Source of the DNA: Bacteroidales bacterium
GTDB taxonomy: Bacteria; Bacteroidota; Bacteroidia; Bacteroidales; UBA932
DNA: 64,000 nt
Reading direction: 5' to 3'
Assembly: GCA_022648545.1 (NCBI GenBank)
Contig: JALCMP010000002.1
Span: 124,001 to 188,000, forward strand
Below the pieces are notes generated by a model. The model was given only the letters and a program-made list of their open reading frames with translations. It was not told the DNA's origin and did not search any database. This document shows, piece by piece, positions 12,936 to 35,590 of this stretch; positions within the stretch are counted from its first letter, which is position 1; every line of letters starts with the position of its first letter. The position numbers and the translations under genes are program-made.

Positions 12936-15452
12936 CTAACCGTAAATCTGCCTTATTTCGCTTAATTTGCTGTCAAGCAAGGCAAGATCCTCTATATAAA
13001 CTTCACGTGTGTTGTTTTTATTCAGGGGGCCTACTATGCCGGCTTTTTCAAGCTGGTCGATCAATCTTCCCGCCCTATTGTAACCGAGACCGAGCTTCCT
13101 CTGCAAAAGAGACGTGGATCCCGTCTGTGCCATTACTATGATCTTTGCCGCATCCTCAAACAATGCGTCTCTTTGTGCCAGATCGGTCTCTCCTGGTTTA
13201 TGACTGTCACCGTCCTTGTCGGGCTCCACATATTCCGGCAGATAAAACGGAGTGGTATAGCCCTGCTGACCGGATATATAATCCACTACTCTTTCTATTT
13301 CTTTGGTATCTATGAACGCACATTGTACCCTCGTGAGATCACCCCCGCTGGATATGAGCATATCGCCGTGTCCAATAAGCTGATTTGCCCCCACTTCGTC
13401 GAGAATAGTCCTGGAATCTATACTGGAACGTACCATAAAAGCTATCCTGGCAGGGAAATTGGCTTTTATATTACCTGTAATTACGCTTGTGGTAGGACGC
13501 TGGGTGGCAATAACAAGGTGTATGCCGATAGCTCTTGCCAGCTGAGCCAAACGTGCAATAGGCTCTTCTATATCCTTACCTGCAGTCATCATCATATCCG
13601 CATACTCGTCTATGACGACGACTATATAAGGCAGATATCTGTGTCCCTTGAGAGGATTGAGCCGCCTTTCGAGATATTTTTCATTATATTCCTTTATATT
13701 CCTTACTCCGGCCATCTTAAGAAGATCGTACCGGCTGTCCATCTCGGAACAAAGCGATTTCAAAGTATAGATCACTTTTTGGGTATCGGTTACCACTGGC
13801 TCGTCGGCATCGGGAAGCATTGCGAGAAAATGACTGTCGAGTTTGGAATAAACTGAAAGTTCTACCTTTTTGGGATCCACCAGTACCAATTTCAGTTCAG
13901 AAGGATGTTTCCTGAATAAAAGGGAATTTATTATAACATTCAGCCCCACTGATTTGCCCTGTCCGGTAGCTCCGGCAACAAGCAGATGCGGCATTTTTGC
14001 AAGATCGAATGTCAAAACCTTTCCGGTTATGGTCTTGCCCAGAGCAATCGGCAGTTCGTATTTGGCTTCATTGAATTTCTTGTCCTCAAGAACGGATTTC
14101 ATGGAAACAATGCTCTGGTGTTCATTTGCCACTTCTATGCCTATTGCATTAGTTCCCGGAAGCGTTACGACCCTCACTCCCCTTGCTGCAAGTGAAAGCT
14201 GTATATCTTCTTCGAGTCTCTTTATCTGTGAAACCCTTACGCCGGGAGCCGGAACTATTTCATATAATGTAACCGTCGGCCCTATCCTGGCAGAAACTTT
14301 AGAAACGCCTATTTTATAATTGGCAAGCGTCCTTACGATCTGTTTGTTATTTCTTTCAAGTTCTTCCGAAGATACCTGATACCACTTGTCCCTATAATCT
14401 TCGAGAAGAGAAGTCGACGGCGCACGGTATTGCGACAATTCGAGTCTGGGATCAAACAGATGTCTTTTTTCATCTTCACTCAAAACCGACAGGAAATCGT
14501 CTTCTTTATTGTTTGGCGTACAGGTTTCTATCAAAGGAGGCTCTTCGCCCTGTTGCGGCGTAATTTCTTCTATCTGCGATTCTCCGGCGGGTTCTATTAT
14601 TTCAAGCCTGGGAGTTTCAGTTTCCTTTTTTACGGTGGCCGATTCATCTACTTCTGATTCTTCGTTACCTTCCGTCATATCGACTTCTGCAGCGTCTTCA
14701 GTCTCCGGCTCCGTATCTTCTTTTACTTCATCATCTTCCGCATCTTCTCCATCGTCAGTCATTTCATTCCACGGAATTGTAGTTTCTTCGCCGGCCGAAG
14801 ATTTCGTGGAAACGGTACGATCGGTAACCGAGAAAAACCAGGAAACGAATTTTTTACTGGCCACTGTAAGCCATAATACGGTGCATAATAATAAGATCCC
14901 TCCTGCGGCAACTGCTCCTACGGTCTTTTTTAGCCATGCCACTATATAATAGCCGTAAGCTCCTCCGGCTCCGCTGCCGAACCAGTCGTCGGAAGAAGAA
15001 AATGAGAAAAAATAGGCCCCCAAAAGAGAAATCAATATGCATCCGAACAAAGTAAGAAAAGTAAGACGCAATATATTAACCTTCCTGTATCTTAGACAAT
15101 ATACAGCAATGCCAAGGAAAAAGAAAGGTATTAGGAATGCACCGAGACCGAATAATTTCGTTACTGCAAAACGGGCAAAGACAAGCCCGAGACTGCCGCC
15201 GTCGTTAGCAACCTTGTCTATATCTGTACTCAGAGCATTCGGATCCGTAAAGAAACTCTGGTCCTTATCCCACGATATGGTATAGGACAATATTGCTATA
15301 AATGAAAAAACCGCAGCAACCAGAAAGATCAGACCGGCTATAAGACAGGCGGCATCCCATTTGCCCGGCCCGGTGGTTTCGGCCAGTACTGCATCTTTCT
15401 TCTTAACGTTCTTTTTTGGGGAAACCCTGCTTTTTTTTAAGGATCCCTTCAT
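12936..15452 (-). CDS. ftsK: DNA translocase FtsK
   Basis: 4-TM N-terminus, acidic linker, LLVAGATGQGKSVGLN Walker A, C-terminal gamma winged helix. Confidence 0.95.
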   Translation of the reverse strand: MKGSLKKSRVSPKKNVKKKDAVLAETTGPGKWDAACLIAGLIFLVAAVFSFIAILSYTISWDKDQSFFTDPNALSTDIDKVANDGGSLGLVFARFAVTKLFGLGAFLIPFFFLGIAVYCLRYRKVNILRLTFLTLFGCILISLLGAYFFSFSSSDDWFGSGAGGAYGYYIVAWLKKTVGAVAAGGILLLCTVLWLTVASKKFVSWFFSVTDRTVSTKSSAGEETTIPWNEMTDDGEDAEDDEVKEDTEPETEDAAEVDMTEGNEESEVDESATVKKETETPRLEIIEPAGESQIEEITPQQGEEPPLIETCTPNNKEDDFLSVLSEDEKRHLFDPRLELSQYRAPSTSLLEDYRDKWYQVSSEELERNNKQIVRTLANYKIGVSKVSARIGPTVTLYEIVPAPGVRVSQIKRLEEDIQLSLAARGVRVVTLPGTNAIGIEVANEHQSIVSMKSVLEDKKFNEAKYELPIALGKTITGKVLTFDLAKMPHLLVAGATGQGKSVGLNVIINSLLFRKHPSELKLVLVDPKKVELSVYSKLDSHFLAMLPDADEPVVTDTQKVIYTLKSLCSEMDSRYDLLKMAGVRNIKEYNEKYLERRLNPLKGHRYLPYIVVVIDEYADMMMTAGKDIEEPIARLAQLARAIGIHLVIATQRPTTSVITGNIKANFPARIAFMVRSSIDSRTILDEVGANQLIGHGDMLISSGGDLTRVQCAFIDTKEIERVVDYISGQQGYTTPFYLPEYVEPDKDGDSHKPGETDLAQRDALFEDAAKIIVMAQTGSTSLLQRKLGLGYNRAGRLIDQLEKAGIVGPLNKNNTREVYIEDLALLDSKLSEIRQIYG

Positions 15453-16114
15453 TATTTATTATTCTTCCAATATTTATTATTCCTGGATTTTCCGCTTCTG
15501 TAATTTCCACCTTTGCCCGACCCTCTCGAAGTCTGGCTTATCGTTCCCGGACGTTTCTTTGTTCCCGTTGCAACGCCGTCTCCTATATGTACTTCCTGCG
15601 GAACTTTTATCCTGTCTTCCGAAAGCCTCTCAAGATCCTTGAATATCGTTCCTTCGGATACGAGTTCCTTGTTCCATATAAGATAACGCTGCTGCATATA
15701 TGTAGCTATGGTTTTTATCATTCTTGTCTTATCCTGTCCGTCGGGCATATCGGCTATAAACTTAACCATATTCTGTATATTACGTCCGTAATAATAAGCC
15801 TTTATCGGCGTACGGTCCAGAACTACGGGAGCAGGTCTGCCTTCTATGCTTTTACGTTCCGGCGCCGGATAAGGAGATTCTATATCAATCTTATAATCGG
15901 AAATTATATGTACATGGTCCCAGAGTTTGTGGAGAGTTTCACTGTTTCCGTCACGTTGCTGCGCATTAATCACCCCCATGGCATTTATGACGGCCTTTAT
16001 CTGCTCGTTTCTCTTATCTCTGTCCTCTATGGTCATTACGTATTCTATCATATCCTGGATATGTCTGCCATATTCAGGCATCTTAAGTTTTTCCCTCTGA
16101 GTATTATAATCCAT
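15452..16114 (-). CDS. DUF4290 domain-containing protein
   Basis: MDYNTQREKLKMPEYGRHIQDMIEYVMTIEDRDKRN N-terminus typical of this Bacteroidetes family. Confidence 0.8.
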   Translation of the reverse strand: MDYNTQREKLKMPEYGRHIQDMIEYVMTIEDRDKRNEQIKAVINAMGVINAQQRDGNSETLHKLWDHVHIISDYKIDIESPYPAPERKSIEGRPAPVVLDRTPIKAYYYGRNIQNMVKFIADMPDGQDKTRMIKTIATYMQQRYLIWNKELVSEGTIFKDLERLSEDRIKVPQEVHIGDGVATGTKKRPGTISQTSRGSGKGGNYRSGKSRNNKYWKNNK

Positions 16115-16223: not shown

Positions 16224-17279
16224 ATGGGTAAAAAAGCCGTATCCTATCTATTAAACCGGACTGGCATCGTATTAACAATTGCGCTGGCAGTCACAACTGT
16301 TATATCGGACGGCAAGTCCGTTACACTGCCTCCTTCCGAGAGCATGTTCTTCCAGTATTCCGGACTTTTCTTTCCTCTTATAATCCTTCTGAACGCAATT
16401 ATATTATTATACTGGGCCGTAAGAAGAAAATGGGTTTTTATAATCCCCTTATTGGCGATACCGCTGTGTTCCAATTTTATAAATTCAACATTTCAGTTCG
16501 GCGACAAGGCCGCCGTTAACGGAAACATGTCCGGAAAAGACCCTGAAGAATTGACGATTTGCACTTACAATGTAGGCCGGTTCGGAGGGAACGACAGCAA
16601 GTACAACATAAAAGACATAGGAAGATACCTGAAGGAACAGGGAATAGATATAGTCTGTTTTCAGGAATACACGGAGCCCTACGGATTCGGAAGGGACAGT
16701 ATAATTAAATATATGCCTTCATTCGGATACCATTGCATATCCGAACTTCAAGACGGGCGCGACGGACTCGCCATATTCAGCCGTTATCCCATAAGATATT
16801 ATAAATACGAGCAATACCATGATTCTGATTACGGATTCATGTATGCCGACATAGATACCGGATACGAAATTGTAAGAATATTCAACAATCATTTCCAGAC
16901 GACCGGGCTTTCGAAGGCGGAAAGGAAAGACAGTTATTATTCTGCCGCCGACTATATGTCATATAATTTCAGGATGAGAGAAGACCAGGCGGACACTCTT
17001 GATAAAAAAGCTTCGGGATCCCCTTATCCGTTAATAATATGCGGAGACTTCAACAGTACGCCTCTTTCTTATGCGTGCGGGAAATTCTCCGGAAAATATA
17101 CCGATGCATTCAGAGAATGCGGTAGAGGCTTCGCATACACATACAGATATTACCATAAACTTCTGAGAATCGATTATATCTTCTATAACAAAGACATGAC
17201 GGGCATCCGTTATTACTCGGAAGAAAGGCCGTGGAGCGATCACAATCCGGTAATATGCCGTATGGAACCGTTAAGATGA
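16224..17279 (+). CDS. Endonuclease/exonuclease/phosphatase family membrane protein
   Basis: N-terminal TM segments; CTYNVGRFGG, CFQEYTE, CGDFNSTP, WSDHNPVICR. Confidence 0.87.
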   Translation: MGKKAVSYLLNRTGIVLTIALAVTTVISDGKSVTLPPSESMFFQYSGLFFPLIILLNAIILLYWAVRRKWVFIIPLLAIPLCSNFINSTFQFGDKAAVNGNMSGKDPEELTICTYNVGRFGGNDSKYNIKDIGRYLKEQGIDIVCFQEYTEPYGFGRDSIIKYMPSFGYHCISELQDGRDGLAIFSRYPIRYYKYEQYHDSDYGFMYADIDTGYEIVRIFNNHFQTTGLSKAERKDSYYSAADYMSYNFRMREDQADTLDKKASGSPYPLIICGDFNSTPLSYACGKFSGKYTDAFRECGRGFAYTYRYYHKLLRIDYIFYNKDMTGIRYYSEERPWSDHNPVICRMEPLR

Positions 17280-18425
17280 ACTCTGACCGCTTAATGCGGA
17301 AACTTTTTGAAGAGAAAAGCCGAATGTAGAGCCTTCTCCCTCGACTGACTTTATATCAAATTCCCCGCCGTTTTGTTTTACGAAATCCTTAACAAGCAGC
17401 AGGCCCAGTCCGGACCCTTCTTCATTTTCGGTTCCGTATGTAGATAAATTGGAATTATCCTGCATTATCTTCTCCATGTTTTCTTCGCTTATTCCCACGC
17501 CATGGTCTATGACGTAAACCTTTGCGAATTTTTCATCTTCCTCCACCCGTATTTCGACAGAACTTCCCTTGTGGCTGAATTTTATAGCATTACTGAGAAG
17601 ATTCCTCAATACTGTCTTTATCATATCTATATCTGCCCTCACCAATATGGGGGACTTGGAGCCGTAAGTTTCAAGCGAAATATTCTTCACCTGGGTCATC
17701 AGATTAAACACATCTACCATAGACTCAATAAGTTCGTTTATGTCTATGTTCTGGAACACAACGTTGAGAGCCCCGGTCTGACTTTTCGTCCACTTAAGCA
17801 GGTTGTCCAGAAGAGCGAAAGTATTTTCGGCGGTAAGATTGGCTCCCTTTAATATCTCAAAAAGATCAGGGCCTATTTTTTCTTCGGTAACGTTATTAAG
17901 CAGCATGTTTATTACCATTTTTATAGATCCTATGGGAGATCTCAGATCATGCGCGATAACAGAATATATCCTGTCGCGGGATGAAATTATTTTCTTAAGT
18001 TCTTCTGTCTGCTGCAGTATTACCCTCTTGGCATTCACCAGCGATATCTGGTGATCTATTCTTATAATAAGTTCTTCCTTGTTGAAAGGCTTGGAGATAA
18101 AATCGTTTGCCCCTACCTTAAACCCCTGGACTATATCGGTAGAAGAATTCAATGCGGTCAGGAATATTATCGGAATATCCTTATGGGCGGGATCCGATTT
18201 CATTTTTTCCGCGACTTCGAATCCGCTCATTCCCGGCATCATCACATCAAGTAAAACCAGATCAGGCTTTTCCGCATCTAGAATATCCAATGCGGACTTG
18301 CCGTTGGTGGCGGTTACGAGCTGGTACTTCTCCTTTCCCAGCAAAGCCTTAAGTAGAATAACATTGGATACAACATCATCCACAATAAGGATTTTAAAAT
18401 CTGCTGAATTATATTGCACTTCCAT
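17271..18425 (-). CDS. Soluble REC-HisKA-HATPase histidine kinase
   Basis: REC ([24 protein letters not shown]) followed by HisKA ([12 protein letters not shown]) and HATPase ([22 protein letters not shown]); no sensor or TM region. Confidence 0.92.
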
Positions 18426-19368
18426 GATCGTTTTTTAAAATTTTATCAAAATATGCTATAGTTGCGGCAAGTCCTTCTTCAACAGACACAGAAGGTGCAT
18501 AACCTATGACTTTTCTTGCCAGAGAAATATCCGGTTTCCTTCTTTTCGGATCATCGCAGGGAAGAGGCTTGAAAACAAGTCCGGATTTGGAATTGGTCAT
18601 GTCTATTATCTTTTCGGCAAGCTGCAGAATTGTAATCTCCACGGGATTTCCAAGATTCACCGGACCAAGAAAGGAATCGTCAGTTTCCATAATTCCTACC
18701 ATCCCTTTTATAAGGTCGTCAACATACTGGAAACAACGGGTCTGGGTTCCGTCGCCGTAAATGGTTATATCTTCATTATTAAGGGCCTGCAATATAAAAT
18801 TGGAGACAACCCTTCCATCGTTCACGTTCATATTCGGACCGTAAGTATTAAAAATCCTTATTATTTTTATTCTGGTCCCTTTTTGACGGTTATAATCCGC
18901 ACAGAATGTTTCCGAAACCCTCTTGCCTTCGTCATAGCAGGATCTTATGCCGATAGGATTGACATTCCCCCAATATGTCTCTTTCTGGGGATTTTCAAGA
19001 GGATCCCCGTATACTTCGCTGGTAGACGCATGAAGCAACTTCGCATCTATTTCAGTCGCAAGTTCAAGACAATTAAGTACGCCGAGAACGGACGTCTTGG
19101 TAGTCTTTATAGGTTTATACTGGTAATGAATCGGTGAAGCGGGGCATGCAAGATTGAAGATTTCTTCGACTTCGGCATAATACGGGTTTATAACATCGTG
19201 CCGCACAAGCTCAAAATTATGATTATCCAGTAAATCCCTTATATTATCCTTGGAACCTGTAAAATAATTGTCGAGACATATTACGTCATTACCTTTTTCC
19301 AAAAGATATTTGCACAAATGCGAACCGATGAAACCGGCACCTCCGGTAACAAGAATCTTCTTCTTCAT
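18409..19368 (-). CDS. UDP-glucuronate decarboxylase (UDP-xylose synthase)-like SDR
   Basis: [62 protein letters not shown]. Confidence 0.9.
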
Positions 19369-19418: not shown

Positions 19419-20666
19419 CTACCTGGCCCTTCCGGATTTTTTCCACACTCCGCCCTTGTTGCCTGAATAAAAGAATGCACGCATCACATTATAATTCATA
19501 AACAAAAAATAATAAGCCGCATAAAGTATCTTATTTTTCTTCCCAGCCCTCGAGCATACAGCCCCGGCAAGAGCACATATATAAAAGGCAACCTGACAGA
19601 TAAAAAGCCAAAAGTATATTTTTACCGACACTCCGGAAAAGCCCGACGAATGACCGCAAAAAGCCAAAATGGCATTTGCTATAAACATTACGGGCAAACA
19701 CGCCGGAGTTACGGACCATCTCAGCACGCGGTGCGATATATACTGGAAACTCAGCATTCCGTACTTGAAAATGTTCAACAACGGAGAAAGTCTGGCAATA
19801 GACTGCAATCCGCCGGCGGCAATTCTTACTTTCCTTTTCCCTTCCTCGAACATATTTGCAGAATTTCCTTCAACTGCGCAAGCATTACGACAGTATGCTA
19901 TTTTATACCCTTTCATGGCAATACGCATGGACATCATAAAGTCGTCAAGAAGAGTATCTTCGGGTAAAGGCTCCAAAAGGGACGTTCGCGCCGCAAATAA
20001 TTCACCGGCAGCTCCTACTGCCGAATACAATCTGTAATCCATATCTTTAAGGAACGATTCATATTTCCAGTAAAGCCCTTCGGTTCCGGCCGCATCACCG
20101 GCAGCTCCCGCTTCGGAACTGACTCTTTTCTCTCCTGATACGCATCCCACTCTTTCATCTGCAAATTCCGCAGCTATTTCCGCCAGGGCTTCACTGCATA
20201 ACATCGCATTGGCGTCCGAAAAAACAACCAGGGGAGTATCCACATATTTCAGGGCTCTGTTCAGTGCAGCCGTCTTGCCTCGTCTGTCGGGTTGATGTAT
20301 TGCCTTAATTTCCGGAATCTTTGCACCATTGGCTCTCGAATCGGCATTATCGGCGGCAATATCCGAAAGCCTCTTCTCGGATCCGTCGTCCGTTCCATCC
20401 GTCACCCATAATATTTTCAATTTTCCGTAAGGATAACGGAGTTCCATACAATTGCTTATCTTCTCCTCCAGATAAGGCAGCTCGTTATAAGCAGCAATGA
20501 CAAGCGTCATAGCCGGCATATCACTTGCAGAAGGAATGGAACGCCTCTTTCGCTTCCCGCATTTTTCCTTTATTTTAACAAGCACGAATACCAGCAGACC
20601 GTATCCGGCATATGTATAAAATACAACGGACAGACAAATCCAGAAAACAACCGCAACATAAATCAT
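19419..20666 (-). CDS. Family 2 glycosyltransferase, membrane associated
   Basis: GT-A motifs TLVIAAYNE, VVFSDANAM, LLDDFMMSMR; C-terminal TM helices. Confidence 0.88.
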   Translation of the reverse strand: MIYVAVVFWICLSVVFYTYAGYGLLVFVLVKIKEKCGKRKRRSIPSASDMPAMTLVIAAYNELPYLEEKISNCMELRYPYGKLKILWVTDGTDDGSEKRLSDIAADNADSRANGAKIPEIKAIHQPDRRGKTAALNRALKYVDTPLVVFSDANAMLCSEALAEIAAEFADERVGCVSGEKRVSSEAGAAGDAAGTEGLYWKYESFLKDMDYRLYSAVGAAGELFAARTSLLEPLPEDTLLDDFMMSMRIAMKGYKIAYCRNACAVEGNSANMFEEGKRKVRIAAGGLQSIARLSPLLNIFKYGMLSFQYISHRVLRWSVTPACLPVMFIANAILAFCGHSSGFSGVSVKIYFWLFICQVAFYICALAGAVCSRAGKKNKILYAAYYFLFMNYNVMRAFFYSGNKGGVWKKSGRAR

Positions 20667-20678
20667 TTCATTATAAAT

Positions 20679-21812
20679 TTAATGAATACCAACGGAATAT
20701 GCAGTATCTTCATACACTTCGAGCAATTTTTCAGCAGAAGTTTTCCATGAAAATTCCGCCACCCTGCGCAAACCGTATTCGGAAATATTTTTTCTATAGG
20801 CCTCGTCAACTTCCAGCCTTATAAGACATGAAGCAATATCCGCCGGATCGTCCGGATCTGCAAGAACGGCTCCTTCCCCTGCTATTTCAGGCATGGCGGA
20901 AGTTCTGGAAGTAATCACCGGAGTACCGCAGGCCATAGACTCCAAAAGGGGTATCCCAAAACTCTCTCGCAAAGAGGTATATAAATAAGCGCTCGCTCCG
21001 CAATACAAATACGGAAGATCCTTATTGGGAATATACCCGGCAAAACGCAGATACGGCATTATCCATCCTATTGAATTCACACGCAACAAATAACTTACAT
21101 AATTCTTATCAAGATCGGCAATAAGAAGTGGATATCTTCTTGACGAACGGCCGAGGTAGGAGGCATATGCCCGCAGCGTTCCTTCGGTATTCTTCTTGGG
21201 ATCCCTGTTGCCGAGAAAAAAAATATACTTTTTATCTGGCAGATACATCGATGTTACCTTATAATAATCAGAGACGGGACGGAAATGCTCACCATACCCG
21301 TTATATATGACCTTTACCCTGTCTTCCGGCAGATCCAGATATTTCTTTATCCGTTTCTTCTCATATTCCGACACGGTTATTACGCAAGCACTGTGTGCGG
21401 CAACATAAGGGACCACCATGCGACGATAACGCCATCCGAGTTTCTGGTATAAAGATGAACTTCCGGAATGTTTCTTCTCCATGAAGATTACATCGTGAAG
21501 CGTGAGCAGCAACGGGACGGGGCATTTCAAAGGAGCAGTATTACTTGTGCAATGCAGTATATCGGCGCCGGTTTTTTTTACGGCAACAGGCAAGGCAATC
21601 TGCTCCCAAAGAGGATATGTAGGGCATTTTAATACATTCACATGCATGTTCTCCGATTCATCCAGACACACGTCGTTACCCGGAGCCACAAAGACGAAAT
21701 ATTCGTTTTTATGATCCAGGTCTCTTATTTTGCGCAGTTCCTCCAGGATGACGAAATCCATTCCGTGCTTGTCCTTTCTGAAAATTCTCTGTGCTTCAAT
21801 GGCTATTTTCAT
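20679..21812 (-). CDS. GT4-like glycosyltransferase
   Basis: YIFFLGNRDPKKN, SLRESFGIPLLESMACGTPVITS. Start moved to MKIAIEAQRIF. Confidence 0.88.
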   Translation of the reverse strand: MKIAIEAQRIFRKDKHGMDFVILEELRKIRDLDHKNEYFVFVAPGNDVCLDESENMHVNVLKCPTYPLWEQIALPVAVKKTGADILHCTSNTAPLKCPVPLLLTLHDVIFMEKKHSGSSSLYQKLGWRYRRMVVPYVAAHSACVITVSEYEKKRIKKYLDLPEDRVKVIYNGYGEHFRPVSDYYKVTSMYLPDKKYIFFLGNRDPKKNTEGTLRAYASYLGRSSRRYPLLIADLDKNYVSYLLRVNSIGWIMPYLRFAGYIPNKDLPYLYCGASAYLYTSLRESFGIPLLESMACGTPVITSRTSAMPEIAGEGAVLADPDDPADIASCLIRLEVDEAYRKNISEYGLRRVAEFSWKTSAEKLLEVYEDTAYSVGIH

Positions 21813-21819
21813 GACAAAG

Positions 21820-23001
21820 CTATTTATGTTCGGTATGAATAAAATTTTCATTTGCCCCGCTCGTCCTGAACAAATTGGAAAACATCATTAGAAATATGGC
21901 GGGAATCCTTTTCATAGCTCTTCGGAACTTTTCATCCACCAGATAATCGGGTGTAGATATGGCCAGCGATAAAAGGAACAGGAACAACATTATCCACCAT
22001 TTCCATCCAAGGCTGAAAGTTACCAGTGGCGCAGCCACGGACATTATTAATATTATGCCAAGAATTACGACTCTCGGTAAAATCATCCATTGGAATAATT
22101 TCTCCATGTAATCGTAATTTGCAGTTTTTAACGCATATATAAACTCGCTGAAAAAATGTGAAAGAGAACCGAACTGCGCAGCAACCCATCTCCGGCGCTG
22201 ACCGTAAAAGGCATCATATCCGGAGACCTTCTGATCATAAATATAATCATAATCGAGGTAATCTATAAAAATACGCTGCTTCAAAAGCAACGCCTCAAGT
22301 TCCTTGTCCTCTCCTGCGGTTTTTAACTTTTTTACATTTTCGATGAACCAGCCGTAATCGAAAGCCATGCCCGAACCTATAAGAGCCGATGAAAATCCGG
22401 CATATATATGGCCCTTCCTGAATATGGAATTATTAATTTCCTCGCTGAGAGCATCGAGCACGGCAACGGAATTCTCCCTGTTTTTTGAGACCCTGTGCAC
22501 CTGGAGCGCCTTCACCCCCTTGCAAAAAGCATCAGCAATATCGGAAAGAAAACATGATTCCACAATATTGTCGGCATCAAGTATTATTACCGCATCGTAA
22601 CCGGTTCCGGAATTTTTATCAAGATAAGATGCCGCATATTTCAATGCTTCCGCCTTGGAGCTTTTATCAAATATGGGCTTAAGAGTAATTACGGGAAGTT
22701 TAAGCAATCTCCCGTTCGTTGCATCGGACATTCCGTCGGAGATTACCACTACATCGTACAAATTTCTGGAATAGTCCTGCAAAAGCAGATTGGCTATAGT
22801 ATCGAATATTACGTTATCTTCCTTATAAGCAGGCACAAGTACTGCAAACCTCATTTTGCGTCCGCCGGAACATCTTTCATATCTGGTTTTCCATCCGTTC
22901 AAAGAGAAAAGGGAAAACACAAATATATAGACGACATATATTGCCATCACAACGAAAACTATAATATCAAGGATATCGAATAGTACAACAAGCATAATCA
23001 A
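21820..23001 (-). CDS. Family 2 glycosyltransferase with QxxRW-type motif and TM helices (processive-type)
   Basis: VLVPAYKEDNVI, AVIILDADNI, YGQRRRWVAAQ. Confidence 0.87.
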   Translation of the reverse strand: MIMLVVLFDILDIIVFVVMAIYVVYIFVFSLFSLNGWKTRYERCSGGRKMRFAVLVPAYKEDNVIFDTIANLLLQDYSRNLYDVVVISDGMSDATNGRLLKLPVITLKPIFDKSSKAEALKYAASYLDKNSGTGYDAVIILDADNIVESCFLSDIADAFCKGVKALQVHRVSKNRENSVAVLDALSEEINNSIFRKGHIYAGFSSALIGSGMAFDYGWFIENVKKLKTAGEDKELEALLLKQRIFIDYLDYDYIYDQKVSGYDAFYGQRRRWVAAQFGSLSHFFSEFIYALKTANYDYMEKLFQWMILPRVVILGIILIMSVAAPLVTFSLGWKWWIMLFLFLLSLAISTPDYLVDEKFRRAMKRIPAIFLMMFSNLFRTSGANENFIHTEHK

Positions 23002-24500
23002 GTTATTATTTTTTCCTGTTCCTGTTCTTTATCAAGACGTACCGTTATAAAGATAATGGAAATACATATAAAAACTATTATTCCGTTGGGAAATTGTGCA
23101 AGTACTTCATTAGCATATGACGTTACCAGAATACCGGCAAGCACGGAAACAGCAATATTATTATAACGGCGCAATACTTTATCTTTTAATCTAAAAAAAG
23201 AACAATAGGCGCCGTAAAATATTATGGCAAGCATTATCAATAAATAAAGAGAAAGCCCCACTATTCCGGTTTCAATCCAGAGGGAATACAGCCATGAATC
23301 AGTAGGGATCTGAGCCAACGAAGAATCGGGGACATACCTCAGGGCTTTACCTCCCGCAAGTCCTATGCCTACTCCGAAAAGATGTCCCTTCATATACTTT
23401 CTCATTTCGGCATGATGCATTACCCTTACCTGAAACGATGCGTCTTCGCTGTCGAATGCCGTCCTCATCCTCCTTATATATTGGTTGCCGTTGCCCACGT
23501 TGGTAAACATGAGCAAAAGCACTCCTGCAATCATAACACTGCCTAAAGATATTATGTATTTAGAATTTTTAACAATGATGACGAATGTAGCTATACCCAC
23601 TATTATTATAGCAATTGCACTCCTGGTTCCGGATAATAAGAAACCAATAAAAGACAAGACCATCGTAACGAAATAAAATATTTTCTTAACGGTTTTGACC
23701 TCTGAAAATCCTAGGATTGCAAACACAACAAAAGAGAGTCCCATAGATGTACCAAAATTAGCAGCATCGGTAAAAAAGGAAAAATACCTTATTCCCGTAT
23801 TTATGATATGAGTACGATAATGATCTCCGGCATATAGCCATGTCCATTCGAAACGATTGAACCCGAATATTTTTTGTCTTATTGCCGTTAATGCTCCCAG
23901 AATCGTCAAAACCGCCAGGGCGTTAAAAAATATTCTTATTTCCTTTTTCCCCTCAAGCACTATCGGAACGAACAGGATAATGAGAAGCATATATACCGAC
24001 GTCCATCTTACTGATGTAAACCAGGCCTGAGTTGATCTGGATACAGGATTAAATAGCAGCAGCAGGGTATAGATAAACCATATGACAGATAAAAGCAACG
24101 CCGGAGTTCTGCTATAACTCCAATTTATTTTTCTTTTTACGAATATGGTATCCAGCAACAGAATGGAAATGAAAATATATAACAGAAAATCAAATCCCAC
24201 TCCGGTCTTGAACCATGGCTGTAAAATAGAGAAATTACAAAACAAATAAGAATATATGAAAATAAAAAAAGCGAATATCTTATAATTATAAAAGGAAATC
24301 ATAAGAAAAATTACTGCAAACGGAATCATTACATATATGATAGCGATCTTGTAATTTAGCATTACGGCCGAATAGGCAAAGGCGGCAAGAAAGCACAACA
24401 GTAAAAATCCACCCAATATCCATCCGATATTACGGCTGAAAAAGCCCTTGACGGGATAACGCTTATTTGAGGAATCTTCAGACATAATTTTTGACCGCAA
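22998..24500 (-). CDS. O-antigen ligase/Wzy-like polysaccharide polymerase
   Basis: Polytopic membrane protein, LLSGTRSAIAIIIV and large periplasmic loop; context between GT and Wzz-like genes. Confidence 0.8.
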   Translation of the reverse strand: MRSKIMSEDSSNKRYPVKGFFSRNIGWILGGFLLLCFLAAFAYSAVMLNYKIAIIYVMIPFAVIFLMISFYNYKIFAFFIFIYSYLFCNFSILQPWFKTGVGFDFLLYIFISILLLDTIFVKRKINWSYSRTPALLLSVIWFIYTLLLLFNPVSRSTQAWFTSVRWTSVYMLLIILFVPIVLEGKKEIRIFFNALAVLTILGALTAIRQKIFGFNRFEWTWLYAGDHYRTHIINTGIRYFSFFTDAANFGTSMGLSFVVFAILGFSEVKTVKKIFYFVTMVLSFIGFLLSGTRSAIAIIIVGIATFVIIVKNSKYIISLGSVMIAGVLLLMFTNVGNGNQYIRRMRTAFDSEDASFQVRVMHHAEMRKYMKGHLFGVGIGLAGGKALRYVPDSSLAQIPTDSWLYSLWIETGIVGLSLYLLIMLAIIFYGAYCSFFRLKDKVLRRYNNIAVSVLAGILVTSYANEVLAQFPNGIIVFICISIIFITVRLDKEQEQEKIIT

Positions 24501-24507
24501 AAACGGT

Positions 24508-26688
24508 TCAGGCCGAATAACCGGACTGCATTATCTTATATATGAATTTTCTGTATGCGGTATAAGGCGGAAGCATGCCGGCAAAGGTTTCAAGGACATA
24601 TCTGTCCGTATCTACAAGACATAAACGCAAAGGAGCCCCGGCGGAATTACGAAGCAAATTCTCATACATTATCTGGTTGGCTTCGCTCCATACCATAGAT
24701 GCGTTAAGGAGCAACATGTTCAGATCTGAGTTACGCAACATAGATGACGGAATCGACGATTCCTTGCAACTGGGATGGATAATAATAACGACATCTTCTT
24801 CTCCTTCGTAAAACTCTGATACGGATCCGGCCGCAATATAATCCCGGCTGTCCGAAATAAAATCTTCTCCAGCTAAAAGAATCTTGACGGAAAAACCGGC
24901 ATTCATTATATAATTCGCAAGGGCCTGGGCTATTTCTTCCTTACGCTCGTGTTTTTCGATACTGGTTATGTTAATATAATGCTTCTTTCTTACGGAATCG
25001 AAAAAGTTCATAACGGCATTTGACAATGCATGTATCGACATATCCTTATACTGCGTATTATACATCCTGTATTTTAATAAGGAATCTTTGGGATAGGCTC
25101 CTATAACTTTTGCATCTCTTATTATATATTCGGTTTTCATTTTATCGGTAAGAGACCTGTCGAGGAAAAACATTATCAGAAATACACCTATTATAAAAAT
25201 CACGCTGCCCAAAAGCACCAATATGATTATTCTCATCCTGTGCATGGGAAGCGACGCTATAGGAAATATGGGCGGAGTAACCATCTTCAGCGAAGCGGAA
25301 CTAAGCTGTATGTTTTTCATACGCCCTTTTGCATCATTAAGATCATTGAAAATCTCCAGATAATTTCTCTCGGCCATACTAACCTTCCGTTCCCTCCTGC
25401 TCAAGGTAGTTCCAACAGGAGAAAAAGCCAGATAATTGCTGTCTATATTGTTTTTAAGGGAGTTAAGTACATTTAGTTCCGATTTTGATTTTTCATATGT
25501 AATATTGGCATCTATCCACTGTTTTACATAATCGGAACTTGGAACCCCTTCTTTGGAATATTTTTGTTCTGTTATATCCCTGGATTTTCCAAGCAGTATC
25601 CCCAGATTCTCGTCATAATTCGAATGAATTTCATTTTCGGCTGACCTGATCTTCATATCTATCTCTTGAAGCCTGTCTTTTTTCCCTTCTGAAACGGTAT
25701 CCATTAATATTTTGGTCCGATGTTCCGATAACTCACCTATAACCGACAAATGATTCAGAAAAGACAAATTTTTCTTCAGCTGACTGGAAAATCTTTCAAT
25801 CTTGCTGCCAAGCATATCAACTTCCACCTTGGACGTAACCATATTGACACGGACATGTGTCACCTCGGTTTCATAATCGCTGTTTAATATCGCAAGCTGC
25901 TTGGTTTCCTCGGGATAATTTATGATCCTGTGTTTTATGTTATAATGCATGAGGGAGTCCTCTGCCGCAGACAGACTATCTTTAGCTTTTGCCAGTTCCT
26001 TCTCATACATTTGTACGAGATTGTCTACTTCTCCAAACTTAAGATTGCGATATCTGCTCTTGAATTCATCCACGATGAAAAGCATGGTATAATATGCCAG
26101 TCCAGGATCCGTCAACATATACTTTATCCTCAACATTTCACTGTCCTTTATCCTTTCTGCTTCTATTCGTGACAATGCGCCGTTACTGAAAAACGGATCA
26201 TTATAATTGAAAAGTCCATAGGTATAACTTGAAGTACTTGAATTATCATAAGCCGTTATATTGGCCAGAGAACGCTCCTCTGAATCTTTATCTATAAGAT
26301 CCTTAACTTCCTGCGGTACATGGGAATAAAGGGCTCTGTAATTCTTTGCAAGAATATACTTGGTATCCCTGTTGGGATCGCCGTACATAAGTGATTGTGT
26401 AAATAGTCTTAGCGATACATTCTTAAGTGTCTCCTTGGAAATCAATATATTAAGAAAGGTTTCCATGGAATTATTTACGGCGGTATAACTTATTGTAGTA
26501 TTACCGCTCAAATTTCCGAATTCCACACCGGAAGCCACTCCAGTATATAATACTGCACTCACTTCGTATTTCGGAGACAACTTCCTCGTAAAAGCAAAAG
26601 CCATTACGGTGGCGAATAATGCTCCGAATATAATCCACCATTTTATTTTTGAGAAGAACCTCAGCGTACTATAAATAATATTATTCAT
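24508..26688 (-). CDS. Wzz/GumC-like polysaccharide copolymerase with degenerate BY-kinase-like C-terminus
   Basis: N-terminal Wzz-type TM (MNNIIYSTLRFFSKIKWWIIFGALFATVMAFAFTRKLSPKYEVSAVLYTG), long coiled coil, second TM, C-terminal alpha/beta domain without a P-loop. Confidence 0.82.
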   Translation of the reverse strand: MNNIIYSTLRFFSKIKWWIIFGALFATVMAFAFTRKLSPKYEVSAVLYTGVASGVEFGNLSGNTTISYTAVNNSMETFLNILISKETLKNVSLRLFTQSLMYGDPNRDTKYILAKNYRALYSHVPQEVKDLIDKDSEERSLANITAYDNSSTSSYTYGLFNYNDPFFSNGALSRIEAERIKDSEMLRIKYMLTDPGLAYYTMLFIVDEFKSRYRNLKFGEVDNLVQMYEKELAKAKDSLSAAEDSLMHYNIKHRIINYPEETKQLAILNSDYETEVTHVRVNMVTSKVEVDMLGSKIERFSSQLKKNLSFLNHLSVIGELSEHRTKILMDTVSEGKKDRLQEIDMKIRSAENEIHSNYDENLGILLGKSRDITEQKYSKEGVPSSDYVKQWIDANITYEKSKSELNVLNSLKNNIDSNYLAFSPVGTTLSRRERKVSMAERNYLEIFNDLNDAKGRMKNIQLSSASLKMVTPPIFPIASLPMHRMRIIILVLLGSVIFIIGVFLIMFFLDRSLTDKMKTEYIIRDAKVIGAYPKDSLLKYRMYNTQYKDMSIHALSNAVMNFFDSVRKKHYINITSIEKHERKEEIAQALANYIMNAGFSVKILLAGEDFISDSRDYIAAGSVSEFYEGEEDVVIIIHPSCKESSIPSSMLRNSDLNMLLLNASMVWSEANQIMYENLLRNSAGAPLRLCLVDTDRYVLETFAGMLPPYTAYRKFIYKIMQSGYSA

Positions 26689-26699
26689 AACGTTTCTCC

Positions 26700-27476
26700 T
26701 TACAATAATTTAATGGAGGTAAGTTCCTGCAATATATAAAGATTCTTTTTTATTTCCAGCAATGTATTTATAAACTCTCCGGTCATTTTAACGATGCGCT
26801 CCTTCTGTTCATATAACTCTGATTGATCGGCATTCCCTGAAATAAAATCCACTTTTAAGGCTTCATAGGAAGACATGGAAAGTTGAAGCGCTTCAAAATT
26901 CTGCTGCAGCAAAACCATTTCGGGCCTGATTTTCATATAGGCCATTTCTATCTGCTGGCGAAGCTCTATCAGATTGTTCTTTCTAAAATTTTCATTTTGC
27001 TTTACTTCCATCTTTTTCTGCCGTACGAGATTGCCGTAATTGAAAATATCCTCGAGCGTAAACCCTATGCGTCCCCCCACTATATAATAAGACTGGGAAT
27101 TGGTAGTATAATTATCACTCAGAGGAATACCGGTTTCCGAATAGGTTATCAGAGAATTGGTCCTTCCGTACGAGTAGTTTCCAAAGCCGGAAATAAATCT
27201 CAGCCATAGATTCTTCTGTATCCTTAGAGCATATTCGGAAGCCTTAAGCTGATCGCCTGCGGCTATTATGCCAGGATTCCTTTCGGCAGCATCAAGAAAA
27301 TCATCCAGCGAAGGCAAATTTATTGAAGAGATCTTAACCATCTCTTCCTGCAAATATCTTATGCCGTTATAAAGAGTAACGTTATTAGTATCTCCTTCGG
27401 TCTTTACTTTTTGCGAATATGAAGGCAAGTAAGACAAAAGAAAACATATCGGCAATAATATCAATTTCCTGAACAT
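26700..27476 (-). CDS. Short TolC-family (single OEP-like repeat) outer-membrane protein
   Basis: 258 aa with signal peptide; TolC-like LDDFLDAAERNPGIIAAGDQLKASEYALRIQKN helix pattern; about half the length of canonical TolC. Confidence 0.72.
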   Translation of the reverse strand: MFRKLILLPICFLLSYLPSYSQKVKTEGDTNNVTLYNGIRYLQEEMVKISSINLPSLDDFLDAAERNPGIIAAGDQLKASEYALRIQKNLWLRFISGFGNYSYGRTNSLITYSETGIPLSDNYTTNSQSYYIVGGRIGFTLEDIFNYGNLVRQKKMEVKQNENFRKNNLIELRQQIEMAYMKIRPEMVLLQQNFEALQLSMSSYEALKVDFISGNADQSELYEQKERIVKMTGEFINTLLEIKKNLYILQELTSIKLL

Positions 27477-27487
27477 ATCCGTGTTAT

Positions 27488-28687
27488 TTACACATCATCC
27501 TTCTGGATAAATGCGGTAAAGGTTTTAAATATAATCTTCATATCCAGGCAAAACGAGAAATTGCGGGCATATTTTATATCAAGCATTTTACGCTCCTGCG
27601 GGGACAATACTCCCGATTCGCCTCTTTTTTCTATCTGCCATAAACCTGTAAGACCGGCCGGGGCAAAAAAACGGTCCACATATTCGTCCTGGGTCAGAAG
27701 TTCGGCCTCATATAAAGGCAAGGGTCTGTTGCCGACTACCGACATATCCCCCTTAAGGATATTGAACAGCTGAGGAAGCTCATCTATGCTGAATTTCCTT
27801 ATAATACGGCCTACCCTTGTGATTCTCGGATCATGTTCAATTTTAACGAAGGCTCTCTCTTTTATATTTTTCTGTTCCTTTCTGAAAATTTCCTCGGGAA
27901 CGAAACTGTCGTCGGAGACCAACATATTTTCACCCGCAACGGACAACAAAGCATCCTTGTCAAAATTCACGTCCTCCGGGCCTTCGGTCTTTTGCAAATT
28001 TTCCACATCTTCTTTTTCTTCCGCAGCATATTGATTGGCCCCCATGTAATCCTTAAGCCTCTTGCCGGCGTCCATGTACATGCTTCTAAACTTATAAAAC
28101 CGAAATATCTTATAATTCGCACCAACCCTCTCGCTTACATAAAATACATTTCCCCGGTCCTCCATCCATATCGCCAATATGGTAATAATAAAAAGGGGCG
28201 ATAACAATATTATAGATACTGAAGAAAATATTATATCAAACAACCTCTTCCATAAGGGAATCCTGAATACACCGGATTCCTTGTCCCCACTTCCATCCTT
28301 ATCGGTACGTCCGTAAGAAAAATCCTTTTTAAGGAAGAACAGTATTTCATCTATCTTTTCCTTTCCTACATCCGTACGAACGACATCCCGGAATCCCGCA
28401 CCATACAATTTACCATAGAATCTGCCGTCTATGCCGTCAGAAACCAATACGGGGAAAGCATTCCTGAAATGAGTTACTATATATCTGCCTTCATACAAAT
28501 CGTTTTTAATATTTTTCCTCTCGTAAAATATCAGAAAACGCAACCCCGATTCACCTGCAAGGGGTTTCATAAATTTTGCCGCATTCCGGAGATTGCTGAA
28601 AACATTAATTTTGTATTCCGGAACAAAACCTTTTATCCGTTCAATCGTAATATGGTTTTCACCTATATATATGTATACGATCTTCAC
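27488..28687 (-). CDS. Polyprenyl-phosphate sugar-1-phosphate transferase (PGT) with N-terminal pseudo-receiver-like domain
   Basis: PGT motifs WKRLFDIIFS, FRFYKFRSMYMDAG, DPRITRVGRIIRKFSIDELPQLFNILKGDMSVVGNRPLP. Confidence 0.92.
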   Translation of the reverse strand: MKIVYIYIGENHITIERIKGFVPEYKINVFSNLRNAAKFMKPLAGESGLRFLIFYERKNIKNDLYEGRYIVTHFRNAFPVLVSDGIDGRFYGKLYGAGFRDVVRTDVGKEKIDEILFFLKKDFSYGRTDKDGSGDKESGVFRIPLWKRLFDIIFSSVSIILLSPLFIITILAIWMEDRGNVFYVSERVGANYKIFRFYKFRSMYMDAGKRLKDYMGANQYAAEEKEDVENLQKTEGPEDVNFDKDALLSVAGENMLVSDDSFVPEEIFRKEQKNIKERAFVKIEHDPRITRVGRIIRKFSIDELPQLFNILKGDMSVVGNRPLPLYEAELLTQDEYVDRFFAPAGLTGLWQIEKRGESGVLSPQERKMLDIKYARNFSFCLDMKIIFKTFTAFIQKDDV

Positions 28688-29049
28688 CCCAGGATCTTTT
28701 TAACCCTCACTTTTATTTCCAAGGGATTAAAAGGCTTAACTATATAATCCGATGCCCCCTGCTCGAGAAGTTTAATCCTTTCGGAAGTAGAATCTTCGCT
28801 CGAAAGCAATATAACCGGTATTTCTTTAAGAAATTCATTATTCTTAAGAAACTTCAGGAATTCGGCTCCGCTCATAAGAGGCATCCTTATATCCGATATT
28901 ATGAGATCCGGCATGTTTCCATCATTAAGCCATGCTATGGCCTCCACAGGATTGGGACACCACATAAAATCGAAATCATCGGAAAGATAAAATTTTACGA
29001 CCTTGGCTATAGATTCCTTATCGTCAACTATAAGTATCTTCTTTTTCAT
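28684..29049 (-). CDS. Stand-alone response regulator receiver domain
   Basis: KILIVDDKES, LIISDIRMPLMSG, ILLSSED, DYIVKPF; about 121 aa, no output domain; 4-bp ATGA overlap with the PGT gene. Confidence 0.92.
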   Translation of the reverse strand: MKKKILIVDDKESIAKVVKFYLSDDFDFMWCPNPVEAIAWLNDGNMPDLIISDIRMPLMSGAEFLKFLKNNEFLKEIPVILLSSEDSTSERIKLLEQGASDYIVKPFNPLEIKVRVKKILG

Positions 29050-29071
29050 ATCCGGATTGTAGCTTCGTTTA

Positions 29072-29101
29072 CAAAAATAACAATTTTTTGCCATAATCAA
29101 A
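29072..29101 (-). promoter_or_regulatory. Bacteroidetes-type promoter (TTTG-N18-TATTTTTG) for the exopolysaccharide operon
   Basis: -33 at 29098-29101 and -7 at 29072-29079 (reverse strand), 22 bp upstream of the receiver ATG. Confidence 0.6.
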
Positions 29102-29225
29102 TAGTAATCCGCCATGGCGGCAAAAACATGGAAAACGACGAAAAGCCCGATAATTCAACCCCATACAGCAACAAGAGATTCCGCTCTCTATTAAACTTTA
29201 ACAGCACCCCGACGGGCAAAAACAA

Positions 29226-33103: not shown

Positions 33104-35590
33104 TCACTTAAGGGTCTTGAAAACATAGCCTTTCCTTTTTAAATATCTCACTACTTCGTCGAGACGGTTATATAATTTATCGGTTCTCCTCTTATCTATG
33201 CCAGGATGGATAAGCAGGACGGCACCGTCCAGACCTTCGCGCCATTCGAATGAATATAGTTTGTCGATAAGTTCCTGAGAAGACCTGTAATGCTTCATCT
33301 CGGGAGTCGTATAATCCGCAGGCGTAGCGGTCCCTGGCGTATAATTTATAACCTTATAGCCCATATCCTTTATGATATTCACGCTTGCCGCATTATAATA
33401 TTCATAAGGAGGCAAAAACCATTCTGATTCATCCCTGGTTATCCCGAATTTCAAAAGTTCGCTGGCATTATACTTTATATCTTCAATGATTTGGCTGCGC
33501 GGAACTATCAGTGAGTCCCTATTCCCCCACGTGGCATATAAAAGATGACGTCCGGAGTGGCCTCCGACATAATTTCCTCCTCTTATTATATCTCTTATTA
33601 TCTCCGCGTGTTCCGGCATTGCAAGGCAATTGCCGGTAAGAAAAAATGAACCTTTTATGCGGTTTCTCTTAAGAGTCCTGAGTATTCTGGATGCTCCCGT
33701 AAAATTCGAATCGGCGGTAAATACCAGATAAATATTTTTGACATGGGGATTTATTCTTATCACGGCTCCGTATCCATCCTTTTCATACACGTCTTTTTTC
33801 TGTCGGTTCCCGTCTTCTTCCCTGGAGGCAAGATAATAGCACAATCCTGCAGTTCCGTCTATCGTAGGCTCGTTGCTTGCATAATCGCCGCTGTCGTCGT
33901 GATATACGGCAATACCTTTATTGAAAGGAGCATAGGCATCTGCATGATGCAGGGAATTGCCGGCACGGCTGTCGAATATGGATTTGTAAACAGGACCGTC
34001 TACAAGACCTCCATACGGCAGTTTATGCGCAAAGGTCAAAAAGCCGGACTGCGGATGTAACGGAACGTCCTCGGCTCCCTGCGGATATCCGACTATCATT
34101 GACGTCCCCCACGGATTGCATCCGAAAAGCCAGTCCCGCAGCGCCGACTCCATCTCCATGTAAGTGGAGTCCTTCGTTATCTTATAATACAGCGAAGCCT
34201 GGGTAACGGCTGCAGAAAGGAAATTATTCGAACACCATAAATAAGGGAGACCATTCATAAACGGGTCGCCTTCAGATCTTTTCCTTATCATTTCAAGACC
34301 TTTTTTCATATACCCCGAGAATATTCTGCGGGCCTTGTTATCCGATGAAGAGGCTATAAGATAATGGCCGAGATTTATAAAGGGATAAGACTGGTAATGA
34401 CGTGCCGTATCTTTTACTATCCATGGGGATACATGCTCGAGTTCCCCCCAGTATTCGGCCTTGCCGAGCCAATAAGGATCGCCCGACAAGCTATAGTCGG
34501 TTGCAGATGCAAGTTCCAGATCATCAGCATAATTATCTTCTTCATAAAAATAAGGGGAAACCAGACAGCAGGTCTGCGTATTTCCCAAATCCTCCTCTGC
34601 ATACTTGTAAGCATCCTCCGACTTTCTTAGAATACGATCGGCGAAGCTTTTGTCATAATTTCTGAATATGCGAGCCCCCAGTGCAAAGGCAGAAGCAAAT
34701 TTGCCTGCGGTTGAAGAAACGCCGGTGGTTCTGTTTACATATTTTCCGAGCCCCTGCGGTCTGCCGGTAAGGAAATAGACGGGACGCCCCTTCCCGGGTC
34801 CCCAGCCGTAATCTATCCTGTCGTCCTGAGGCAAAGTAAATTTTATATGATCCCTGTCGTCGGCAATCTGGAAAAACATAACCTTATCCGACGGGTTCAT
34901 CTTGTCCAGCCAGTCGAGTCCCCATTTTGCCTGATCGAGGATATCGGGAATACCGTTCGCTCCTCTTCTGCCCCTGTCATCGTATTCATCCCTAAAAACG
35001 CTTTTGTCCGCAATTTCCATATATGCAAAAAGCATTTGATATGTTGCGGTTGCAGAAGTTTTTACGTATTGCAGATAATCCGCGGCATCGTGCCATCCGC
35101 CCCTTACATCTATCTTTTCACCGCTGCGCGTAGGATGATCTACAATATAACCGTCGTTTTGATGGCAAAGGGTATCGGCCACCGGATTGTATCCGCATTG
35201 TTGTTCCCTCATGAATTTTAGAAGGAATTCGGCAGAGCCGTCGTAACAGCCGGCGGAAATAGGAAATACGGGAGACCTTGCGTTTCCGCAAAGTACATAA
35301 TATCCTCCGGATTTACGCAAGGAGGAAAAATCCAGCCTCGCCCCGGCTGCGAACCCCCATTTGGAGGCATCTCCGCAAACGCGTGAGTTTCCTTCGAAAA
35401 CCACGCTGTCGGTAACGGCCTCGCATACCTGAAAAGAAGAAGGGGCACTGCCCGAAGAAGCTATGTAAACAGCAACCTTTATATCCTCCGGAAGATAACC
35501 AAGCTGGTTGACCCTTACCCATTGCTGCGAAAACAAATCTGCAGATATAAAAAGGCAGCACAATGAAATTATCAATTTTTTCACGATCAA
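33104..35590 (-). CDS. Secreted GH9-family glycoside hydrolase fused to C-terminal polysaccharide deacetylase (CE4)-like domain
   Basis: GH9: DVRGGWHDAADYLQYV, GCNPWGTSMIVG, ASNEPTIDGTAGLCYYLA. CE4-like: YLVFTADSNFTGASRIL, VGGHSGRHLLYATW, LIHPGID. Confidence 0.87.
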   Translation of the reverse strand: MIVKKLIISLCCLFISADLFSQQWVRVNQLGYLPEDIKVAVYIASSGSAPSSFQVCEAVTDSVVFEGNSRVCGDASKWGFAAGARLDFSSLRKSGGYYVLCGNARSPVFPISAGCYDGSAEFLLKFMREQQCGYNPVADTLCHQNDGYIVDHPTRSGEKIDVRGGWHDAADYLQYVKTSATATYQMLFAYMEIADKSVFRDEYDDRGRRGANGIPDILDQAKWGLDWLDKMNPSDKVMFFQIADDRDHIKFTLPQDDRIDYGWGPGKGRPVYFLTGRPQGLGKYVNRTTGVSSTAGKFASAFALGARIFRNYDKSFADRILRKSEDAYKYAEEDLGNTQTCCLVSPYFYEEDNYADDLELASATDYSLSGDPYWLGKAEYWGELEHVSPWIVKDTARHYQSYPFINLGHYLIASSSDNKARRIFSGYMKKGLEMIRKRSEGDPFMNGLPYLWCSNNFLSAAVTQASLYYKITKDSTYMEMESALRDWLFGCNPWGTSMIVGYPQGAEDVPLHPQSGFLTFAHKLPYGGLVDGPVYKSIFDSRAGNSLHHADAYAPFNKGIAVYHDDSGDYASNEPTIDGTAGLCYYLASREEDGNRQKKDVYEKDGYGAVIRINPHVKNIYLVFTADSNFTGASRILRTLKRNRIKGSFFLTGNCLAMPEHAEIIRDIIRGGNYVGGHSGRHLLYATWGNRDSLIVPRSQIIEDIKYNASELLKFGITRDESEWFLPPYEYYNAASVNIIKDMGYKVINYTPGTATPADYTTPEMKHYRSSQELIDKLYSFEWREGLDGAVLLIHPGIDKRRTDKLYNRLDEVVRYLKRKGYVFKTLK

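Follow-up and report, generated by a model that had tools for sequence, protein, structure and literature searches.

A PCP-2 polysaccharide co-polymerase of Bacteroidota with a predicted BY-pseudokinase domain, encoded beside a half-length TolC-like protein

Polysaccharide co-polymerases (PCPs) that work with a pseudokinase are already known: there are EcpK and HfsB and, as cited in PMC12004946, fused variants in Proteobacteria. EcpK and HfsB raise a question: how does a co-polymerase go through its cycle without tyrosine phosphorylation? The same question is posed by a locus in the window (i.e., the whole stretch of 64,000 nucleotides of a Bacteroidales genome that was analysed here), whose source is a draft genome of 2.37 Mb in 56 contigs with an estimated completeness of 85%. 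Judging by sequence and predicted structure, the co-polymerase encoded there is not a BY-kinase by the features tested and agrees with a PCP-linked BY pseudokinase in those that could be tested. More than 100 natural variants of it, which have lost the kinase features to different degrees and some of which are in named isolates, make the question of co-polymerase cycling a testable one. The features of the locus are collected in Table 1.

Table 1. Coordinates in the window of the genes of the locus and of the segments of the co-polymerase
Feature	Position	Strand	Remarks
Receiver-only response regulator	28684..29115	-	143 aa; PF00072
PGT (bacterial sugar transferase)	27488..28687	-	PF02397, E 2.4e-58; degenerate receiver-like N-terminus
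Half-TolC, single-repeat outer-membrane efflux protein	26700..27476	-	258 aa; PF02321 in one stretch
PCP-2 Wzz/GumC-type polysaccharide co-polymerase with fused predicted BY-pseudokinase domain	24508..26688	-	726 aa
Co-polymerase, TM helix 1	26587..26640	-	residues ~17-34, read from sequence; PF02706 match at 14-92
Co-polymerase, TM helix 2	25162..25236	-	residues ~485-509, read from sequence
Co-polymerase, predicted pseudokinase domain	24511..25155	-	residues 512-726; AlphaFold2, Foldseek, hhalign
Eroded P-loop, IEKHERKE	24937..24960	-	residues 577-584; GEGKS/T-like in relatives; K583 kept
Walker-A' strand position, VKILLAGEDF	24859..24888	-	residues 601-610; DxDhR motif absent
Walker-B position, VVIIIHPS	24769..24792	-	residues 633-640; Asp lost
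Family motif, NASMVWSEAN	24676..24705	-	around Trp667; consensus R-A-[ND]-R-x-W-x-x-A-D
C-terminal residues 707-726 (PPYTAYRKFIYKIMQSGYSA)	24511..24570	-	four Tyr; mostly helix
Wzy-type polymerase / O-antigen ligase family	22998..24500	-	PF04932, E 5e-12
Glycosyltransferase family 2	21820..23001	-	a relative is dead and fused in sister species
Glycosyltransferase family 4	20679..21851	-	
Glycosyltransferase family 2	19419..20666	-	
Nucleotide-sugar epimerase/decarboxylase-like protein	18409..19368	-	read from sequence, GxxGxxG Rossmann start
Receiver-histidine kinase hybrid	17271..18425	-	PF00072 and PF02518

The co-polymerase and the fold of its C-terminal domain

The co-polymerase consists of an N-terminal Wzz domain, a large periplasmic part, a second TM helix and a cytoplasmic domain of about 215 residues. 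This is the layout of a PCP-2 protein, that is, a Wzz domain at the N-terminus and two TM helices (placed here from the sequence) around a large periplasmic domain. A preliminary description of this DNA had called the protein Wzz/GumC-like and, indeed, the open reading frame is real, includes every string quoted there and matches PF02706 (Wzz) at its N-terminus, with 25.1 bits in hmmscan (just below the Pfam cut-off of 25.5) and 30.4 bits, above the cut-off, in the genome search. Some homologues are longer (L009:419-3022 and L010:1396-4308, of 867 and 970 aa) and carry one or two LysM domains in the periplasmic part.

The cytoplasmic domain has no family of its own in profile searches of Pfam and NCBIfam, and phmmer with the window protein against the PDB sequences returned one chance match only, so the relation to kinases is not shown by single-sequence search. 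With the window protein alone as query, the search over genome contigs found no homologue, and it was a three-row alignment, used as query over the contigs, that succeeded. Modelled with AlphaFold2 from 72 homologous domains, the last 215 residues reached a mean pLDDT of 95.7 and a pTM of 0.90, and the 50 matches listed by Foldseek against the PDB were all BY-kinase-containing chains (Wzc, Etk, CapB/CapAB and BceF), with an E value of 9e-7 for Wzc and a TM-score of up to 0.66 for CapAB. These TM-scores are moderate (0.53-0.66), which counts against the explanation favoured below. In profile comparison, the family aligns over 183 columns with 16 real BY-kinases from the same taxonomic order (hhalign E 2.7e-17, probability 98.9). 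The BY-kinase-like pattern that the preliminary description had noticed after the second TM helix is thus no product of chance, since both this alignment and the predicted fold match BY-kinases, and the structure prediction it had proposed for comparison with CapB and Wzc did not turn up an unrelated fold. On the model, the C-terminal domain has the BY-kinase fold.

Catalytic motifs and terminal tyrosines

Does a domain with this fold keep the elements of an active kinase? Motifs were counted in 105 full-length Bacteroidota homologues from sampled genomes, aligned with 17 BY-kinase PCPs; the named isolates Bacteroides ihuae, B. faecalis, Alistipes montrealensis and Sphingobacterium faecium are among the 105, as are B. 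faecichinchillae and Phocaeicola paurosaccharolyticus. The Walker-B Asp, present in 17/17 BY-kinases, is found in 3/105 family members (87/105 have Glu), and the window protein reads Ile637-His638, with Ile where Asp is expected. The A' columns Asp607 and Arg609 are occupied in 17/17 BY-kinases, whereas the family has lost both. In the window protein, where the alignment is ambiguous in detail, these columns hold Gly607 and Asp609; the preliminary description had called the Asp residues of A' absent, and the DxDhR motif is indeed missing, but D609 lies just past the A' strand, and whether it corresponds to an A' Asp is ambiguous. Moreover, the PPNPxEL segment (conserved in 16-17/17 BY-kinases) falls in gaps in 105/105 family sequences, and the EX2RX2R oligomerisation motif has been lost family-wide, the window protein having M, H and S at its three positions.

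The P-loop has followed a different course. The window protein, which had been called P-loop-less, reads KHERKEE and does not match the Walker A pattern GxxGxGK[S/T]: both Gly and the Ser/Thr are gone, but K583, which aligns with the Walker-A Lys, is retained. The sequence HERKE is unique to this copy among the homologues. Clade-wide loss of the P-loop as a defining feature, the possibility that the preliminary description had put to an alignment check, is ruled out, as GK[S/T] is kept in 90/105 homologues, G582 and K583 are each kept in 95/105, and the nearest homologue (L005, of the same genus and 39-40% identical) has GEGKR. Loss is instead recurrent and partial: 15/105 sequences, six of them from Sphingobacterium, have a changed P-loop in otherwise full-length genes, which amounts to seven changes on a tree calculated with FastTree after removal of the P-loop columns. 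Read from these sequences, the likely order of loss is A', Walker B and the tyrosine tail first, and the P-loop afterwards and repeatedly.

Other positions are conserved in the family and absent from BY-kinases, namely Trp667 (invariant, 105/105), D671 (98/105, Asn in the window protein) and a C-terminal consensus, GxLP[PK], with a largely basic helix after it. The invariant Trp667 and near-invariant Asp671 therefore indicate that the domain is under constraint. The four tyrosines near the C-terminus (Y709, 712, 717 and 724), which had been likened to a BY-kinase cluster, are real as a count, which composition alone would give by chance in about 2% of cases by our estimate. Nevertheless, they form no such cluster: at least four Tyr in the last 30 residues occur in 2/105 homologues versus 12/17 real BY-kinases, and this C-terminus is largely helical in the AlphaFold2 model and not a loose tail, so that a role as a BY-kinase tail is ruled out. 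Lacking the A' motif, the Walker-B Asp, the Tyr tail and a glycine P-loop, the window domain should, as far as sequence can tell, be unable to phosphorylate. The pseudokinase reading of the preliminary description is supported, as A', Walker B, EX2RX2R and the tyrosine tail have disappeared across the family from a domain whose fold matches BY-kinases; that such a domain may pass on a conformational signal was also suggested there.

The locus and its relation to known systems

The co-polymerase belongs to a conserved locus made up of the receiver-only regulator, the PGT, the half-TolC, the PCP and Wzy; the pseudokinase is linked to the PCP-2 part in one polypeptide, and the adjoining PGT, Wzy and glycosyltransferases fit a Wzx/Wzy-type locus. 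In the sampled genomes, the upstream sequence exceeds 4 kb at 76 homologous loci, and within 4.5 kb upstream of the PCP a half-TolC was found in 75/76, the receiver regulator and the PGT in 69/76 each, and an OPX (Wza) gene, by profile search, in 0/76. On the downstream side, Wzy follows within 2.5 kb in 78/83 loci. As a control, the OPX profile matches beside 14/16 real BY-kinase PCPs in stretches of about 5 kb, and the half-TolC profile beside 0/16 in the same stretches. A further 20 loci from the class and the phylum gave half-TolC in 19/20, one of them in divergent orientation, and OPX in 0/20. In the locus, then, the half-TolC takes the place of OPX, and the clean split between kinase plus Wza and pseudokinase plus half-TolC suggests that exporter partner and mode of control change together. 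The dead kinase being almost always beside half-TolC and not Wza, export of the polymer without tyrosine phosphorylation is also suggested. Nonetheless, an OPX for this co-polymerase could be encoded elsewhere in the genome, which counts against the favoured explanation: there are OPX genes on another contig of the window genome, one of them beside its real BY-kinase PCP. That protein (L040:13275-15452, G000:C10) has the Walker motifs and the Tyr tail.

What kind of exporter would the half-TolC be? Modelled with AlphaFold2 (pLDDT 91.3), the half-TolC of the window consists of one alpha-beta-beta-alpha repeat and matches OprM, CusC and TolC in Foldseek over about 200 residues. Nearly all of 107 homologues are 238-280 aa long, PF02321 was matched by 79/79 in the aligned sample, and the proteins scanned singly have one stretch each. 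The half-TolC shares the OEP repeat and the fold with these outer membrane factors, although it is half their length, has one repeat instead of two, and its gene is linked to a PCP and not to an efflux pump. TolC has two OEP repeats per protomer, and a barrel of its size would hence need six half-TolC protomers; the number may be six or another one matching the co-polymerase ring, which raises a question of symmetry, i.e., how many half-TolC protomers meet that ring. The replacement of OPX by half-TolC is the most novel part of these findings, possibly already described: literature searches found no paper in which a PCP has a TolC-like exporter as its partner, which is weak evidence given their limited coverage.

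The regulator of the locus keeps the phospho-acceptor Asp and the Lys in 77/77 homologues adjoining a PGT, and the N-terminal 130 residues of the PGT resemble a receiver domain (hhalign probability 89.7, E 1.8e-6). The receiver-histidine kinase hybrid is a candidate partner of the regulator. There is a precedent in Myxococcus xanthus, where the phosphorylated single-domain regulator EpsW activates the initiating PGT EpsZ (PMC12802240), in a pathway that also uses EcpK, a stand-alone BY pseudokinase and partner of the PCP-2 EpsV (PMC12004946). The presence of EcpK and of EpsW-EpsZ in one pathway suggests by analogy that, where the co-polymerase kinase is dead, control may move to the initiation step. 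EcpK is similar to the window domain in its BY-kinase fold, in having a C-terminal helix instead of a Tyr tail and in its PCP-2 partner within a Wzx/Wzy pathway, whose PGT is controlled by a single-domain regulator as proposed for the window locus. In contrast, EcpK is a separate protein without any of the Walker motifs, while the window family is fused and most of its relatives keep Walker A, and Myxococcus exports via the OPX EpsY and the beta-barrel EpsX, whereas the window locus has a half-TolC and no OPX.

The fused PCP-2/BY-pseudokinase variants of Cuthbertson et al., such as SMc01795 (as cited in PMC12004946), combine the TM and periplasmic part with a pseudokinase in one polypeptide. 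The examples cited are proteobacterial, and the family described here belongs to Bacteroidota and has motifs, a locus and an exporter gene of its own. Wzc and CapAB share the fold, and Wzc the domain order, but they are active kinases with Walker A, A' and B, the EX2RX2R motif and a tyrosine tail; the partner of Wzc is the octameric Wza (PMC12881504).

The explanation we favour, and consider reasonably probable as a whole, is that of a PCP-2 with a structural pseudokinase scaffold, export through half-TolC and control at the level of the PGT. On the cytoplasmic side, the pseudokinase domain would serve as a scaffold or as a docking module. By protein contacts, made by the invariant Trp667 motif and the C-terminal helix, it would determine how the periplasmic co-polymerase oligomerises and how the co-polymerase meets Wzy. 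The way out for the polymer would be a multimer of the half-TolC encoded by the preceding gene and not an octameric Wza, and the receiver-only regulator would act on the PGT through its degenerate receiver domain, as EpsW on EpsZ.

Same-genus genomes and alternative readings

Among 39 genomes of the same genus, a full-length PCP is found in the window genome and in G001. A third copy, in the single-contig genome G034 (L007, G034:C1:1323496-1325711), is broken by many stops, and the regulator, PGT, half-TolC, Wzy and glycosyltransferase genes around it remain open. Strong matches to the half-TolC profile (E <1e-30) are confined, among the 39, to these three genomes. A match to a shorter dead-kinase gene is present in 18/39, with complete copies of about 500-720 aa (e.g., L011:685-2313, plus strand; L020:709-2856 and L222:10876-12561, minus strand). 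In the genomes inspected it is directly beside DUF4290 and FtsK; DUF4290 is at 15452-16114 in the window, where the PCP locus is near the same flank. The short gene encodes a fusion in which two TM segments and a small periplasmic portion are combined with the pseudokinase region and with a truncated glycosyltransferase. The latter matches the glycosyltransferase encoded after Wzy in intact loci (best E ~1e-11); in most copies its DAD has become KAG, and the later catalytic motifs are missing. The dN/dS across pairs (0.11-0.29) indicates that the fusion is maintained under purifying selection. The simplest reading of these sequences is that it arose by collapse of the locus in place, of which one flank only is shared.

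Could the domain instead be a nucleotide-gated switch, whose relatives bind ATP/ADP via Walker A without phosphotransfer and so alter PCP oligomerisation, the window protein being a recent degenerate case? As most relatives have a normal P-loop, many of them may still bind nucleotide, and the domain may be an ATP-gated switch and not a pure scaffold, which counts against the favoured explanation. The frequencies of GK[S/T], G582 and K583 suggest that the P-loop is under selection in most lineages, and the GEGKR of the nearest homologue also speaks for a switch. However, the 15 altered P-loops (seven tree changes, six sequences of Sphingobacterium) are in full-length genes, in view of which nucleotide binding looks dispensable, and the Walker-B Asp is missing almost everywhere, so we regard this possibility as rather unlikely. 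That the protein is an active BY-kinase with an unusual motif (Glu for Asp at Walker B, and phosphorylated terminal tyrosines) is scarcely credible: it would accommodate the Glu of 87/105 homologues and the four Tyr of the window protein, but not the absence of the A' motif, the loss of PPNPxEL and EX2RX2R and a family without Tyr tail, nor a window protein without the P-loop Gly and Ser/Thr and with Ile at the Walker-B position.

A functionless domain or gene, decaying in a metagenome-assembled genome whose lineage is on the way to losing this locus, would agree with the stop-riddled copy in G034, the lack of a full-length gene in most genomes of the genus and the HERKE found in the window copy only. 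Against this stand the full-length reading frame, the complete locus, the confident fold, the retention of Trp667 and other family positions, and the purifying selection on the shorter gene of the sister species, all of which make decay improbable. Returning to the scaffold reading, its broadest form combines a Bacteroidota-wide exporter class working without tyrosine phosphorylation, a pseudokinase PCP docked to half-TolC, a PGT switched by the receiver regulator and, in sister species, collapse into a selected fusion; that all of these hold together is plausible, with chances a little below even.

Near the polysaccharide locus, the window also encodes one protein (33104-35590) with a cellulase N-terminal domain, a GH9 domain and a polysaccharide deacetylase domain, and homologues of it occupy the corresponding position in G001 and G034.
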